From Candidatus Poribacteria bacterium (lineage in GTDB: Bacteria; Poribacteria; WGA-4E; PCPOR2b), in contig JAJECO010000053.1 in the NCBI GenBank assembly GCA_022822005.1, forward strand, positions 62,001 through 126,000: a stretch of 64,000 nucleotides of DNA. Reading direction: 5' to 3'. Positions 9,366-49,265 of this stretch are shown piece after piece. The first letter of the stretch is position 1, and each line of letters begins with the position of its first letter. Position numbers and translations under genes: made by a program. Under the pieces are notes generated by a model. That model ran no database searches. It saw only the letters and a list, made by a program, of their open reading frames with translations, and was not told the origin of the DNA.

Positions 9366-9532
9366 TATGGTGAACTTTAGAATTACTTGGATACTCTGTA
9401 CCGGCGATGGGAAAATCCGGGCTATCACCTCGGTAGGTGCGGTTTCTAACCGCACCGCATAGGCGCAGTTAGAAACAGCGCCTACCAAACATGGGGAGCG
9501 AAAGTGTATACATATTTTGATAATTCACTATA
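9366..9532. mobile_element. Family-2 MITE-like element, copy G
   Basis: Left end TATGGTGAACTTTAGAATTA and right end TAATTCACTATA are imperfect inverted copies. Inside are GGTGCGGTTTCTAACCGCACC and a GGCGCAGTTAGAAACAGCGCC palindrome, followed by GGGGAGCGAAAGTGTATAC. The same parts occur in the copies at 11354, 40389 and 45940. No coding capacity. Confidence 0.7.
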
Positions 9533-11353: not shown

Positions 11354-11527
11354 TATAGTAAATCCTAAAAACAGATAGACGCTTTCGCTCCCCGTGTATG
11401 GTAGGCGCTGTTCCTCCCGACAGGTCGGGATCCCGATTTATCGGGACGCGCCGATGCGGTGCGGTTAGAAACCGCACCTACCGGGCATAGGGGCAATGTG
11501 ATTCGGTTTGGACTAAGATCTACTATA
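11354..11527. mobile_element. Family-2 MITE-like element, copy H
   Basis: Starts TATAGTAAATCCTAAAAA and ends GATCTACTATA. It contains GCTTTCGCTCCCC, GGTAGGCGCTGTT and a GGTGCGGTTAGAAACCGCACC palindrome, plus an inserted CCCGATTTATCGGG hairpin. It runs in the opposite sense to the copy at 9366. It abuts the NHL gene's stop. Confidence 0.75.
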
Positions 11528-19047: not shown

Positions 19048-19111
19048 AGATCCTCCTCCGATGTTTCCCCAATTGTATCACGATTCTGTTAAAAATCAAA
19101 CCAATATTTAT

Positions 19112-19225
19112 AGGACTTACGCAGCGCGTTCGTAAGTCCCCCTGACAAGGGGGATTTAGGGGGTTGGGGATTTAGGGGGTTAAAAATAAAAATCTACCCC
19201 CGTGTGCTAAATTTGCGTAAGTCCT
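19112..19225. mobile_element. Family-1 MITE-like element, copy C
   Basis: Perfect 12-bp inverted ends AGGACTTACGCA and TGCGTAAGTCCT. Inside are GGGATTTAGGGGGTT direct repeats and the CCCCCTGACAAGGGGG hairpin. It is the reverse-complement relative of the copy at 1368. I find no clean target duplication. At 114 bp it is the shortest copy. Confidence 0.8.
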
Positions 19226-19308
19226 GACTTTATTTAAGTCGTTATGTCTGATAGGCGTCTCATTCAGAAACTTCAAAACAGCATTTCAAATCGATAAGGA
19301 GTCCTCCC

Positions 19309-30155: not shown

Positions 30156-30602
30156 TAAAAACCTCCTTAAAAGAATAACGCGTAACGAGTTATACGTACG
30201 AGATTATCTCTACAACCATCATTACTTCGTCTTCAGGATTATCGTTTCCTCAATAACGTGAGTACGTAAGAAATTGAACAAAGAAAATCCCTCCACAAAG
30301 GGAGGGATACTTGTAAATGAACCTACTTGCACATCAGTTAGGCGGACCACTGCTGCGATACTGAAATGGCTAGTGCTCTGTCAAATAAATGCTAATGGTC
30401 CTGCTCGTTGTGAATTGACAAATCCACAACACCGCCGCAAGTCGGGCTTGGATATGGCTATCCAAGTCTCGGACTCTCCCCGATAAATCGGGACAGGCGG
30501 AACGGAGCCGAGCAGGGAGTAAATTATGATAAGTACGTTCATTGCGATGTCCGGTGCGGTTACAAATCGCACCTACCGGGCCTGGGGAACTCTGACAATG
30601 TG
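30156..30602. other. Intergenic region with repeats
   Basis: No gene. It holds a minus-strand terminator (30281-30308), a short GAATTGACAAATCCAC repeat also seen near 48778, a CCCCGATAAATCGGGG hairpin and a worn GTGCGGTTACAAATCGCAC palindrome near 30556. Confidence 0.6.
30281..30308 (-). terminator. Probable Rho-independent terminator
   Basis: On the minus strand an 8-bp stem (ATCCCTCC with GGAGGGAT), loop of six, then TTTTCTT. It lies downstream of the cytochrome-like lipoprotein genes and upstream of ppdK. Confidence 0.55.
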
Positions 30603-31082: not shown

Positions 31083-31347
31083 TCATTCCCTCCAGTTGGA
31101 TTCCTCAAATTTTACCTGTAAAGGCTGCGTAGAAAGGAAACATTCTTGATAAGTTAGGAATTACGCACTTGAACACTCAAAACTTTGTAGTTCAGCGATT
31201 CATCACCGTAGGGCACCATTTCCAACGCCCGATGAATTGGGCAATTACAGTAAGGTCTTAGGTTTGTAGTAGTCCCGATAAATCGGGACGTCCGGACGCG
31301 CAATTCATTGTGCTACTACAAACTGAACTGCGTAACTCCTATAAGTT
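31083..31347. other. Gap between the two cytochrome-like genes
   Basis: No gene. Nearly all of it is the family-1 element at 31156-31340 and its target duplication. The upstream paralogue's stop overlaps the right-hand duplication region. Confidence 0.6.
31156..31340. mobile_element. Family-1 MITE-like element, copy D
   Basis: Ends AGGAATTACGCA and TGCGTAACTCCT. Exact 7-bp direct repeats ATAAGTT flank it (31149-31155 and 31341-31347). Inside are CGCCCGATGAATTGGGC and a TTTGTAGTAG/CTACTACAAA palindrome carrying a CCCGATAAATCGGG insert. It splits two paralogous genes. Confidence 0.88.
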
Positions 31348-40388: not shown

Positions 40389-40550
40389 TATAGTAGATTT
40401 TAGAATTAATGAGACACTCCAAACCGGTGCGGTTAGGAAAACGAAACTACCGTTTGGTAGGCGCTGTTTCTAACTGCGCCTATTCGGTGCGGTTGCAAAC
40501 CGCACCTACCGGGAGGCGAAAGTGTCCATTTATTTTTAGAATCCACCATA
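40389..40550. mobile_element. Family-2 MITE-like element, copy I
   Basis: Starts TATAGTAGATTTTAGAATTA and ends AGAATCCACCATA. The inside has GGTAGGCGCTGTTTC, GGTGCGGTTGCAAACCGCACC and GGCGAAAGTGTCC. It touches the stop codon of the PhyH gene at 40551. Its right part matches the uninterrupted form of copy J. Confidence 0.75.
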
Positions 40551-43397: not shown

Positions 43398-43437
43398 TAT
43401 CTCCTTTGTTACGTTTCGTGTTTCATGTCCTCTCGCT

Positions 43438-44244
43438 TCAAGGCTGGTGGTCTGTATTCACCGGAGGTTCATCGTTACCCATAAAGCGTTCCATCGTATT
43501 GATGGTTGCGGGAGAGGTTCGGAAATCGGCGACCCACGGCTCACGGAAATAAGCCAGTTTCTCGCGTGGTAGACCCGCCATCACTTCGGGTGGAATCTTC
43601 AACCGATGCCAGTGGGTGGCGAGATGCGCGTAGGCGTGGAGAATAGCGACACGCGGTGTATCCCGTTTCCAGATAGGTCCCGCATGACAGAGGTTTTCCG
43701 TAAAAAAGATCGCACTGCCAGCCGGGCATTCGTAGCGCACCAAAAATTCGCTCTCCTTCCCATCCTCCCATGACATATGATCCGGGTGCATTGGGAAGTT
43801 TGCCTTGTGGCTGCCGACGATAAAGCAGGTCGCACCGTCCTCCTTCTTCACATCGGTCAGTTCAAAGACGACCCGCACCATACCCGCATGGATTCGTCCG
43901 TTCTGGACACGATAGCCAAAGATGGGGTCTGCCTGTCCCGGCCCCCCGCCGTGCAGTTCGCCGTGGCACTCACCCTTCAATCGCCACGTCAATCCACACC
44001 CCTCCAGTCGAACATCGGGACCGATGATTTCGTGCAACACCTCAATAACCTTTGGGTGATCGATCAGCAGGCTTGCAGCCCCTCCCGGAATGGCTCGATG
44101 TTCCGGCGGCAGCGACTCAGGATTGTGCTGAATTCGATCAGCTTGGTCAATAATTGCAGCAACTTCATCGGGCGTCAAAATCGCCGGACGGACTAAAAAA
44201 CCGGTTAAGTCAAACCGGAAACGTTCCTCTTCGGTCAACCCCAT
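43438..44244 (-). CDS. PhyH-family protein with HxG motif, tandem copy 1
   Basis: A 268-residue protein. The expected iron motif region reads H94-G-E96-L-H98-G-G100. Aligned by distance to LTDV, His98 takes the family's first ligand place and Gly100 replaces its aspartate; H94-G-E96 is an alternative HxE. Distal His187 and Arg198 are present, as is VGSHK. It may be a halogenase-like or otherwise unusual oxygenase, or use H94/E96. By eye it is about nine-tenths identical to the next copy. Confidence 0.83.
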   Translation of the reverse strand: MGLTEEERFRFDLTGFLVRPAILTPDEVAAIIDQADRIQHNPESLPPEHRAIPGGAASLLIDHPKVIEVLHEIIGPDVRLEGCGLTWRLKGECHGELHGGGPGQADPIFGYRVQNGRIHAGMVRVVFELTDVKKEDGATCFIVGSHKANFPMHPDHMSWEDGKESEFLVRYECPAGSAIFFTENLCHAGPIWKRDTPRVAILHAYAHLATHWHRLKIPPEVMAGLPREKLAYFREPWVADFRTSPATINTMERFMGNDEPPVNTDHQP

Positions 44245-44274
44245 ATTGCTTCCTCCATATTCGCGTTTTCAGGT

Positions 44275-45081
44275 TCAAGGCCGGTGATCGGTATTTACCG
44301 CTGGCTCATCGTTACCCATAAAGCGTTCCATTGTATTATGAGTCGCCGGGCGAGTTCGGAAATCAGCAATCCACGGCTCACGGAAATAGGCTTGCTTTTC
44401 TCGTGGCAGACCCGCCATCACCTCCGGCGGAATCGTCAACCGATGCCAATGGGTGGCGAGATGCGCGTAGGCGTGGAGAATAGCGATGCGCGGTGTATCC
44501 CGTTTCCAGATCGGTCCCGCATGACAGAGGTTCTCCGTAAAAAAGATGGCGCTGCCAGCCGGACATTCGTAACGCACCAAAAACTCGCTTTCTTTCCCAT
44601 CCTCCCACGACATGTGATCCGGGTGCATTGGGAAGTTCCGCTTGTGACTGCCGACGATGAAACAGGTTGCACCGTCCTCTTTCTTCACATCAGTCAGTTC
44701 AAAAACAACTCGTACCATCCCCGCGTGAATCCGACCATTCTGGACACGATAGCCGAAGATCGGATCCGCCTGTCCCCGCCAGCCGCCGTGCAGTTCGCCG
44801 TGCGATTCACCCTTCAACCGCCAAGTCAATCCACACGCCTCCAGCCGGATATCGGGACCGATGATTTCGTGTAGCACCTCAATGACCTTTGGGTGGTCGA
44901 TCAGCAGACTTGCGGCGCCTCCCGGAATTCTCCGATGCTCCGGCGGCAGGGACTCAAGGTTATGCCGAATACGGTCGGCTTGGTCAACAATTGCAGCAAC
45001 CTCATCGGGCGTCAAAATCGCCGGACGGACTAAAAAACCGGTTAAATCAAACCGGAAACGTTCCTCTTCGGTCATCGCCAT
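44275..45081 (-). CDS. PhyH-family protein with HxG motif, tandem copy 2
   Basis: 268 residues, nearly the same as copy 1 at 43438, so a recent duplication. Motif H94-G-E96-L-H98-G-G100 is kept; the following residues differ (GWRGQADP against GGPGQADP). Distal His187 and Arg198 are kept. The C-terminus (MERFMGNDEPAVNTDHRP) is shared. The gap to copy 1 is 30 bases, so the copies are probably cotranscribed. Substrate unknown. Confidence 0.83.
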   Translation of the reverse strand: MAMTEEERFRFDLTGFLVRPAILTPDEVAAIVDQADRIRHNLESLPPEHRRIPGGAASLLIDHPKVIEVLHEIIGPDIRLEACGLTWRLKGESHGELHGGWRGQADPIFGYRVQNGRIHAGMVRVVFELTDVKKEDGATCFIVGSHKRNFPMHPDHMSWEDGKESEFLVRYECPAGSAIFFTENLCHAGPIWKRDTPRIAILHAYAHLATHWHRLTIPPEVMAGLPREKQAYFREPWIADFRTRPATHNTMERFMGNDEPAVNTDHRP

Positions 45082-45112
45082 ATTACTATCCTTCGTATCC
45101 GCATTTTCGTGG

Positions 45113-45919
45113 TCAGGGACGGTGATCGGTATTCACCGACGACTCATCATTGTTGATAAAACGTTCCATTGTGTTGTGAGTTGCTGGACGGGTACGGAAA
45201 TCGGCAATCCACGGCTCACGAAAATAGGCCTGCTTTTCTCGTGGCAGTCCGGCGATCACTTCAGGGGGAATCGTAAGTCGATGCCAATGGGTTGCGAGAT
45301 GGGCATAAGCGTTCAGCACCGTTACGCGCGGTTCTTCCCGTTGCCACACGGGTCCCGCGTGACAGAGATTCTCCGTGAAAAAGACCGCACTGCCAGCTGG
45401 GCAGTCGTAACTCATTAAGAACGGGCTCCGTTTTTCCGGCTCCAACGACAGATGATCTGGGTGCATCGGAAAATTCGACTTGTGGCTGCCCACAATGAAA
45501 TGCGTCCCACCATCTTCCTTACCGACATCAGTCAGTTCAAAGACGACCCGCACCATACCCGCGTGAATCCGTCCCTCCCTAACACGGTAGCCGAAGATAG
45601 GGTCTGCCTGTTGGGGGCCCCCACCATGAAGGTCCCCGTGCGCCTCCCCTTTCCGACGCCAGACACAATAGCTGTTTTCAAGCCGAATATCGGGCCCGAT
45701 AATGTCGTGCAGCACGTCAATGACCTTTGGATGATCTATCAGTACGCTGGACGGGCCGCTCGGCACAGCACGATGTTCTGGAGGCAATGATTCCACATCG
45801 TGTCTGATATGGTATATCTGATCTCTAATCGCAGTAATCTCTTCCGATGTAAGAATAGCTGGACGGACCAGAAAACCGGTCAAATCGAAACGGAAGCGTT
45901 CCTCTTCAGTCATCCCCAT
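45113..45919 (-). CDS. PhyH-family protein with HxG motif, tandem copy 3
   Basis: 268 residues from the ATG at 45919, which has GGAGGAGAG before it and matches the start of the other copies (MGMTEEERFRFD). The longer frame to 45985 runs into a repeat element. The motif is H94-G-D96-L-H98-G-G100, so the acidic residue at 96 is Asp where the other two have Glu. This copy is the most diverged of the three, roughly three-quarters identical by eye, and would be the oldest branch. Confidence 0.83.
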   Translation of the reverse strand: MGMTEEERFRFDLTGFLVRPAILTSEEITAIRDQIYHIRHDVESLPPEHRAVPSGPSSVLIDHPKVIDVLHDIIGPDIRLENSYCVWRRKGEAHGDLHGGGPQQADPIFGYRVREGRIHAGMVRVVFELTDVGKEDGGTHFIVGSHKSNFPMHPDHLSLEPEKRSPFLMSYDCPAGSAVFFTENLCHAGPVWQREEPRVTVLNAYAHLATHWHRLTIPPEVIAGLPREKQAYFREPWIADFRTRPATHNTMERFINNDESSVNTDHRP

Positions 45920-45939
45920 AGTTCTCTCCTCCATCTGAA

Positions 45940-46248
45940 TATAGTAGATTTTAGAATTAATGAGACACTTCAAACCAAATCGCATTGCCCCTAGGCCCGG
46001 TAGGTGCGGTTTCTAACCGCACCGCATCGGCGCAGTTGGAAACAGCGCCTACCATATATACGAGGAGCGAAAGCGTCTATTTATTTAGGACTTACGCAGT
46101 TGAACGGTCAAAACCAACCCCCCTGTCCCCCTTATCAAGGGGGTAGTTCGGCGATTCATCACCACTGGACACCGTTGCTAACGCCTGATAAATCAGGCAA
46201 CTACAATCTGAAGTGCGTAACTCCTATTTATTTTTAAGATTTACTATA
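45940..46248. mobile_element. Family-2 MITE-like element, copy J, interrupted
   Basis: Starts TATAGTAGATTTTAGAATTA and ends AAGATTTACTATA. The inside holds GGTGCGGTTTCTAACCGCACC and GGCGCAGTTGGAAACAGCGCC palindromes, then GGAGCGAAAGCGTC. A family-1 element is inserted near its right end. Without the insert it matches copy I. Its right end encodes the last residues and stop of the nucleotidyltransferase gene. Confidence 0.8.
46087..46225. mobile_element. Family-1 MITE-like element, copy E, inserted in copy J
   Basis: Ends AGGACTTACGCA and TGCGTAACTCCT. The host sequence ATTTATTT is repeated on both sides (46079-46086 and 46226-46233), an 8-bp target duplication. Removing the element and one repeat restores the sequence seen in copy I. 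Inside are CCCCCTTATCAAGGGGG and GCCTGATAAATCAGGC hairpins. Confidence 0.9.
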
Positions 46249-47087
46249 GTTGATACGTTAATCAGCATCTCAATCTCGGTGACAAGGATTTCTAATTCAC
46301 GAATGGCTCGCCCCCTCCCGTTCTTGTCGAAGGGTCCCTCAAGAAGTGTGGTGTATCTTTCAAGAAAATTGGGAGGCAATATATCCAGTTTTTCGTATTC
46401 AACTTCTGGTCGCTTGGTAGCTGAATCATATTTTTCATTAATGGCAAAAAGAAGGGTGTAAAGTGCATCACACATTCTGTTAAAAAAGAAATGAAAGAAC
46501 GTAAGACCAAATCCCCTTTTAACCCCGTCTTTAAGTTCTGCGAGACAATCTTTCAGAGTATCCAAGCTGTTCGAAATCAGCCGCCCCTTGAGTTGAACCG
46601 GATAAGGATAGAGACAATCGATAAGATGTCTCAAAAATGAATCGGGATCGTATAGAACAATTCCGTTCTCCAACAGCCCAAGCATCGTATAAGGGCGAAA
46701 CTTTTGCTCAGGAATAGATGTCGCACCCTCCTGTGTGACTCGCTTGACAACGGTGCGAATCCAAGTCACTGTGTTGTACGAAATCTCAAATCGAGTCTCA
46801 TTCATACAGAACCGATCAACTTGGGGAGACCACTGATTATCCCACCCCAATGCGCCCTGGCTGTTCTCAAAGTCGGTAACACCTTCAACGCTTTTCAAGA
46901 CGCGCCGTCGATCTGCGGCAGGAACAATTTCAGGCTCACAGAAGGCGAAAAGGTCAAGATCCGAGTATTCATCAAACGTGCCCATCGCATACGAACCGAA
47001 GCACAAGATCGCTCGCACACCGTCTAGCCTTGCGAGGCTCTCAACGATAGGGGTAGTTTTGTTGTGGATAAGATCGATTGGGTCCAT
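46224..47087 (-). CDS. Nucleotidyltransferase-fold protein
   Basis: A 287-residue protein. The nucleotidyltransferase motif is CFGSYAMGTFDEYSDLDLFAF (GS and DxD) around residues 29-49, a pattern of aminoglycoside-type and MNT-like transferases. The remainder is helical with the conserved FFHFFFNRMCDALYTLL, possibly a substrate or HEPN-like helper domain. The substrate is unknown. The last eight residues (TIVNLKNK) and the stop come from repeat copy J. No toxin-antitoxin partner is adjacent. Confidence 0.75.
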   Translation of the reverse strand: MDPIDLIHNKTTPIVESLARLDGVRAILCFGSYAMGTFDEYSDLDLFAFCEPEIVPAADRRRVLKSVEGVTDFENSQGALGWDNQWSPQVDRFCMNETRFEISYNTVTWIRTVVKRVTQEGATSIPEQKFRPYTMLGLLENGIVLYDPDSFLRHLIDCLYPYPVQLKGRLISNSLDTLKDCLAELKDGVKRGFGLTFFHFFFNRMCDALYTLLFAINEKYDSATKRPEVEYEKLDILPPNFLERYTTLLEGPFDKNGRGRAIRELEILVTEIEMLINVSTIVNLKNK

Positions 47088-48100: not shown

Positions 48101-48189
48101 AGGTGAATCTCCGTTTTGAAATGAGGATGCTGTTACCACGTCAAGAGCATAGCATACCCATCCCAATTTGTCAAAAATTCGATATCTTT

Positions 48190-48372
48190 AGGAGTTACTC
48201 AATTCAGTTTGTAGTAGCGCAATTTATTGCGCGTCTGGACGGGGCATAAATCGCCCTATCACACACCGAATACCCTACTATAATTGCCCGATTCATCGGG
48301 CGTTGAAGATGTTGTCCTGCGGCGATAAATCGTTGAACTACAAAGTTTTGAGCATTCAACTGCGTAAGTTCT
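48190..48372. mobile_element. Family-1 MITE-like element, copy F
   Basis: Ends AGGAGTTACTCA and TGCGTAAGTTCT. The 7-base flanks TATCTTT and ACTCTTT agree at 5 positions. It carries GTTTGTAGTAGCGCAATTTATTGCGC and GCCCGATTCATCGGGC palindromes and closely resembles copy B at 11076 in length (183 bp each) and parts. Confidence 0.75.
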
Positions 48373-49265
48373 ACTCTTTTTGATTAGGATCTAACAATTC
48401 CGAATATTATACCAATTCCTGATTGAGATATGTCAAAATTTTCTTTTATCAAAAAGTGTTGATTTTTAGAACTTGTTTGAAAAGTCATTGTGGGTAAATC
48501 CAGATGGACGTACACGATTCAACGGTATATTACCACTATATTCAGTAAACCGTGTCAGGTCAATGGTAGCTGCTCCGTTCCGTCCGGCCTGCCTGCTCTT
48601 GGCTTGTCGGAGTCCCGCCTGTCCCGATGTAATCGGGGATGCAATCGGGGAGAGTTTTCAACCTGCATCCCGCCTGTCCCCCTGGTCTCAATTTATCGGA
48701 CGATTTAGCGGCTGCTTGGTTTCAAAGTTCGATAGGTTGGAAGCCTCCAACCGCTATCTCCCAATATAGCTCGCTGTGGATTGACAAATCCACAGCACTT
48801 GGGGATAATTTTTTGCTTCTTAAAACAGGTTCTAAGAATTTTCTCGCTTTTTTAATAAAGGTCTGTTAGTTTAACGCAAGTTGTAGTCAATAAACCAAGC
48901 ACTAGAAACTGAAGCAACAGGCGGGAATTGGAATTCCCGCCTATAAAAAACGGACGGTAGGGGGCGTACCCTCCGAATCGCGCTTGGCTTGACTACGGCT
49001 ATATAGTAACTTGGGTAATCCTAACGCAAGTTGCTAGTAGTATAGAAAAACTGAGTTTTTCGTGCTCATATTGTCTGATTTTGGGAAAATGGATTGAATT
49101 TTTCCTTTAGTAATTTAAGTTAATATATTCAACTGACATGTCAGCGTCAATCGGTTGAGCCAGCCTTGATGCGGCCTCCGGTGTGTCATTGGTGGAGAAT
49201 TAGGCACTTGGTTATATGTGACGCATCAGTGTCAATTGGACATCGGTCCACCTATTGGGCAATCG

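Follow-up and report, generated by a model that had tools for sequence, protein, structure and literature searches.

A family-1 MITE nested in an older IS630-type MITE of a Candidatus Poribacteria genome, and the IS701-related transposase that very probably moved it

How one short element with inverted ends came to lie inside another, which of the two was there first and which enzyme carried the second are the questions raised by positions 46079–46233 of the window, that is, the whole stretch of 64,000 nucleotides analysed here from the genome of a Candidatus Poribacteria bacterium, a host that we take to be related to sponge symbionts. The preliminary description saw at this place a family-1 MITE-like element (E) within a family-2 element (J), and this is borne out by the sequence, where E sits inside J. 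On sequence grounds, E is very probably a MITE moved by an IS701_2 transposase into an older MITE of IS630 type; the part given to the transposase is deduced. The elements concerned are the following.

45940–46248, forward strand: element J, a family-2 (IS630-type) MITE split by E, with TA outermost at both ends
46086–46226, forward strand: element E, a family-1 MITE of 141 bp, its boundary set from 48 and 67 family copies
46080–46085, forward strand: TTTATT, left copy of the 6-bp target duplication (from sequence and family boundary)
46227–46232, forward strand: TTTATT, right copy of the 6-bp target duplication (from sequence and family boundary)
40389–40550, forward strand: element I, an uninterrupted family-2 copy of 162 bp

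E ends in terminal inverted repeats of 13 bp with one mismatch, TAGGACTTACGCA and TAGGAGTTACGCA (the right one given as its reverse complement), within which the motifs AGGACTTACGCA and TGCGTAACTCCT are read at 46087–46098 and 46214–46225. The repeat is written TAGGA(C/G)TTACGCA because the duplications start one base outside AGGA...TCCT. The features expected of a MITE are present: inverted ends with a target duplication, a short length (141 bp) without a transposase-like ORF, and a probable partner element with the same ends, which is found in a sibling genome (L166 in G002), the own genome holding remnants only. As RNA, E folds better than its shuffled versions on both strands (z of -4.3 and -3.7); the inverted ends go far to explain this score and no function is claimed. 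Promoter and terminator scans of 45900–46300 returned nothing.

Removal of E and one repeat joins the two parts of J, which then align with copy I through to its end. The claim that this excision rebuilds the right end of J in the form seen in copy I stands as regards the end itself and fails as regards letter-for-letter identity: the string quoted earlier for copy I, CCATTTATTTTTAGAATC, occurs once in the window, within copy I, while rebuilt J reads CTATTTATTTTTAAGATT, so that one end is present in both, differing by a few substitutions. The ends of J and I have the form TATAGTARATYTTA with TA outermost. An IS630-type element of 908 bp in G002 (L250) has ends resembling those of family 2, with 24 of 32 bases equal to the left end of J and 22 of 28 to the right end of I; J thus has both the outer TA at each end and the ends common to an IS630-type element that mark an IS630-type MITE. 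From these similarities, elements of the L250 type are the likely partners of family 2. In L250 the transposase is split into two pieces that are read in different frames, and neither reaches the NF033545 cut-off, so this copy may be inactive; PF13358 has no match in the own genome. The module GGTAGGTGCGGTTTCTAACCGCACC recurs in family-2 copies of the window (9431–9492, 11448–11485, 30543–30580, 40455–40516 and 45998–46059), and family-2 interiors resemble a mosaic of exchangeable hairpin modules.

The partner of family 1 was sought with a PF01609 profile search of six genomes of the genus, which gave 43 matches, 30 of them made into loci. Close pairs of family-1 ends surround a 336-aa transposase at two of these 30 loci. 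The first (L166, in G002) is 1,047 bp long, with ends TAGGAGTTACGCAGTTG, a perfect terminal repeat of 17 bp and the duplication ATCAGC; the second intact sibling IS (L178, in G003) measures 1,044 bp and has an inexact duplication. The L166 transposase passes the NCBIfam model NF049921, transpos_IS701_2 (397 bits, cut-off 250), and scores 99 with the older model NF033540, below its cut-off of 150. IS1634, a family that also makes 5–6-bp duplications, was rejected as the partner (NF033559, 15 bits, cut-off 100). An IS with the ends of E and 7–8-bp duplications had been proposed as the thing to look for: the IS exists in a sibling, and its duplication is 6 bp. The protein of L179, a Candidatus Poribacteria locus, is identical to that of G002.

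A search of the genome collection gave 22 transposase loci, of which the 11 with a near-full-length match were examined. All 11, from several phyla, have recognisable family-1-type ends; they come from Poribacteria, a UBA proteobacterium, Electronema, Pyrinomonadaceae, Anaerolineae/Anaerolineales, Armatimonadetes, Thermoflexus and Thermus. Both flanks are readable in ten, four with exact 5- or 6-bp repeats and six with none; a further IS701_2 copy with a 6-bp repeat lies in G006, and a locus in G003 (C111) repeats the 5-bp case of L180. Transposase matches, many of them distant, occur in 37 of the 58 genomes around the window. One contig of the same order (G019:C1) holds 28 matches to a distant relative (~36% identical), most of equal score, which looks like a recent burst.

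Profile and protein searches of the own genome found no intact partner IS; three partial transposase remnants are present, on C77 (two stops), C63 (73 residues, no stop) and C93 (one stop). In G001, an internally deleted IS701_2 element of 406 bp (L243 256–661, G001:C1:1722855–1723260) keeps both ends, the duplication AATAA and transposase residues 207–274 and 296–330, one fragment with two stops. It is an intermediate between IS and MITE of the kind expected if MITEs arise by internal deletion; the descent of E itself does not follow from it, since the interior of E is unrelated to that of the IS, ~17 bp of ends being what the two have in common. That dissimilarity, together with the presence in the own genome of other genes for PF01609-domain transposases, is what speaks for a different enzyme having moved E by means of similar ends. 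We regard this as improbable, for among the 30 transposase loci none but the IS701_2 copies has its gene enclosed by a close pair of family-1 ends, and in all 11 near-full-length relatives the ends go with this transposase.

How widely these ends are spread, and what length of target they duplicate, can be read from the family. Exact AGGASTTACGCA sites number 136 in the 6.0-Mb own genome, far more than chance would give, since the reversed control pattern occurs 3 times. Three further family-1 copies lie in the window.

19111–19226, forward strand: family-1 copy, no exact 5–6-bp repeat
31155–31341, forward strand: family-1 copy, duplication TAAGT
48189–48373, forward strand: family-1 copy (L069), no exact 5–6-bp repeat

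Unique copies with both ends were taken from the loci at hand, and flank agreement was scored for each boundary and length. One base outside AGGA...TCCT, exact repeats flank 29 of 48 copies (20 of 5 bp and 9 of 6 bp), against 0.77 expected from shuffled flanks (0.62 at 5 bp and 0.15 at 6 bp), and no copy has an exact repeat of at least 7 bp. In a larger set the corresponding figure is 38 of 67 (29 of 5 bp, 9 of 6 bp), which leaves 29 without an exact 5–6-bp repeat. The outer base is T on the left in 38 of 48 copies and A on the right in 40 of 48; A and T make up 73% of duplicated bases, the window having 50% G+C.

The preliminary description gave E an 8-bp target duplication, which the sequence corrects to 6 bp (TTTATT), in keeping with the family repeats of 5 or 6 bp. 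The claimed ends and the flanking ATTTATTT are literally present on both sides (46079–46086 and 46226–46233). This string is TTTATT plus the outer T or A of E meeting identical flank bases, and the 8-bp reading arose because the bases adjoining TTTATT happen to match E's own outer A and T. A true 8-bp duplication, which would assign E to an IS family that repeats 8 bp of its target, is thus very hard to uphold, even with the literal repeat and a second copy (L008) agreeing at 8 of 8 positions at the inner boundary: exact 7–8-bp repeats at that boundary occur in 3 of 48 copies, against 29 of 48 at 5–6 bp one base out, the IS that shares these ends has a 6-bp duplication, and in E and L008 alike the 8 bp consist of a 6-bp repeat extended by outer bases of the element itself.

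Elements with longer interiors were also met. Pairs of ends spaced 750, 1,060, 1,941 and 1,961 bp apart in the own genome were considered as autonomous copies and rejected, no transposase ORF being found on reading. One non-coding element of 1.06 kb (L050 465–1526, G000:C35) has family-1 ends, a 5-bp duplication and an unexplained interior. In G001, no autonomous family-1 copy flanked by an exact repeat emerged from forty regions around most unpaired ends.

Six close copies of E lie in different flanks, one in the own genome (L002, G000) and five in G002 (L089–L093), each with its own 5–6-bp repeat. They are 93–97% identical to E over the matched stretch, L093 being 84% identical over a longer one. 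Exact 6-bp duplications flank L002, L089 and L090, and L093 has the 5-bp repeat AATAA; ACCTTG (L091) and GAACGT (L092) are 6-bp repeats recognised by eye, both outside the count of 48. The finding that was to overturn the nested reading, namely E as part of an intact longer element devoid of a duplication, does not occur, these six copies being separate insertions. That E and J form a standing composite moving as one unit is correspondingly far-fetched: an E-type element does adjoin a family-2 end at L093, and at L038 in the own genome the right end of a family-2 element carries a family-1 element, but the former differs from E in J in orientation, position and duplication (AATAA), the latter in its family-1 interior and surroundings, the other close copies of E are devoid of J sequence, and at no second locus among those examined does E interrupt J at exactly this base.

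E as a separate insertion in J gives the order at this site, where J as the earlier of the two is supported by the nested structure and by the sites with neither element; extended to the two families, that order does not hold. At L052 (2048–2411, G000:C33) the nesting is reversed, a family-1 element being interrupted by one of family 2; when the latter is cut out together with one TA, the family-1 end that results equals that of L064 at 27 of 29 bases. An apparent second family-2 end is itself nested within this family-2 element. At L038 (1415–1705, G000:C22) the family-1 element occupies nearly the place that E has in J. Since nesting is found in both directions, neither family is simply older, and the two were active in overlapping periods. 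Of the 67 family-1 copies, 8, E among them, have a family-2 end within 40 bp, where random positions in the same loci would give 1.4; with 73% A/T among duplicated bases, AT-rich family-2 ends are plausible targets. A loose scan had also proposed L034, L065 and L256 as nested pairs, whose family-2 ends were judged false on reading and left out; L235, from the same scan, is not included among the nested cases. Two MITE families with different transposases have thus been inserted into each other, and because the insertion is mutual, one nested pair cannot date the families.

The surroundings of J bear on what the locus was before either insertion, and two genes adjoin it.

45113–45919, reverse strand: downstream neighbour gene, its start put at 45919 by comparison with relatives; product presumably a PhyH-like dioxygenase, judged from the protein sequence
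46224–47087, reverse strand: upstream neighbour gene, in which J supplies the last codons and the end of E the stop codon; product presumably nucleotidyltransferase-like

In G002, G003 and G004 the sequences that flank J join directly, so that three of five same-genus genomes have neither J nor E; compared for the TA duplication, these sites differ from the rebuilt G000 site by at least one base at the junction. G005 has another insertion at the locus, with a run of N, and G001 aligns on the downstream-gene side only. The comparison of empty and filled sites that had been proposed therefore yields sites without both elements, and no site with J but without E among the five relatives. In G003 the two neighbour genes overlap by 14 nt, and in G000 they are separated by J, GGAGGA ahead of the downstream start staying intact. 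The upstream gene terminates early in G002 without any insertion, which suggests that its alteration by J and E in G000 is probably mild. The window also holds three tandem genes at 43437–45930, spaced by ~837 bp and taken by us to be PhyH-like from their sequence; the last of them has E and J at its start.

The course of events would then be as follows. J, a MITE of IS630 type, would first have inserted at a TA where two neighbouring genes meet. E, which is non-autonomous, would have come later, at the right end of J, where the sequence is AT-rich. Its mover would be a DDE transposase related to IS701 (NCBIfam IS701_2), one that acts on ends of the form TAGGA(C/G)TTACGCA and leaves duplications of 5 or 6 bp in AT-rich targets; the source copy in the own genome has presumably decayed or is missing from the assembly. 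In this account the mover is what we infer; the anatomy, the 6-bp duplication, the sites free of J and E, the sibling IS and the intermediate are read directly.

In the searchable, mostly open-access literature, no report of this family came up in connection with MITEs of Poribacteria, with MITEs of IS701 or with either end sequence. Compared with known prokaryotic MITEs, the family of E is alike in being short, without a transposase gene, bounded by inverted repeats and target duplications, present in many copies and related to a partner IS; there is no basic difference, two-way nesting of two families being a detail and not a new kind. As a nested MITE, E in J is of an ordinary sort, with unusually full documentation, and for one MITE family of a little-studied phylum it brings together most of the chain: likely partner IS, deleted intermediate, miniatures, nested insertions and insertion-free sites. 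J resembles the TA-flanked MITEs of the IS630 family in its outer TA on both sides and in ends like those of the G002 element, which differs from that family in a transposase split over frames, with pieces under the NF033545 cut-off. Less ordinary is the existence of a short IS701-related group with 5–6-bp duplications, against the 4 bp published for IS701. The partner transposase passes the IS701_2 model, as a member would, but the elements differ from IS701 in end consensus, in length (~1,045 bp, with L166 and L178 at 1,044–1,047 bp, against 1,400–1,550 bp) and in duplication, which is 5–6 bp in the exact-repeat IS copies and in the MITEs, whereas a passage of PMC2266710 gives exactly four bp for almost all members considered and an entry of PMC6352166 lists a Thermus IS701 element with 4 bp. 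It is conceivable, if somewhat doubtful, that the short IS701_2 elements (~1.05 kb, TAGGAGTTACGCAGTTG ends, found from Poribacteria to Thermus, with MITEs of their own and a variable target cut of 5–6 bp) constitute an IS family separate from IS701. The IS701 label, as now applied, takes in elements with different target cuts.
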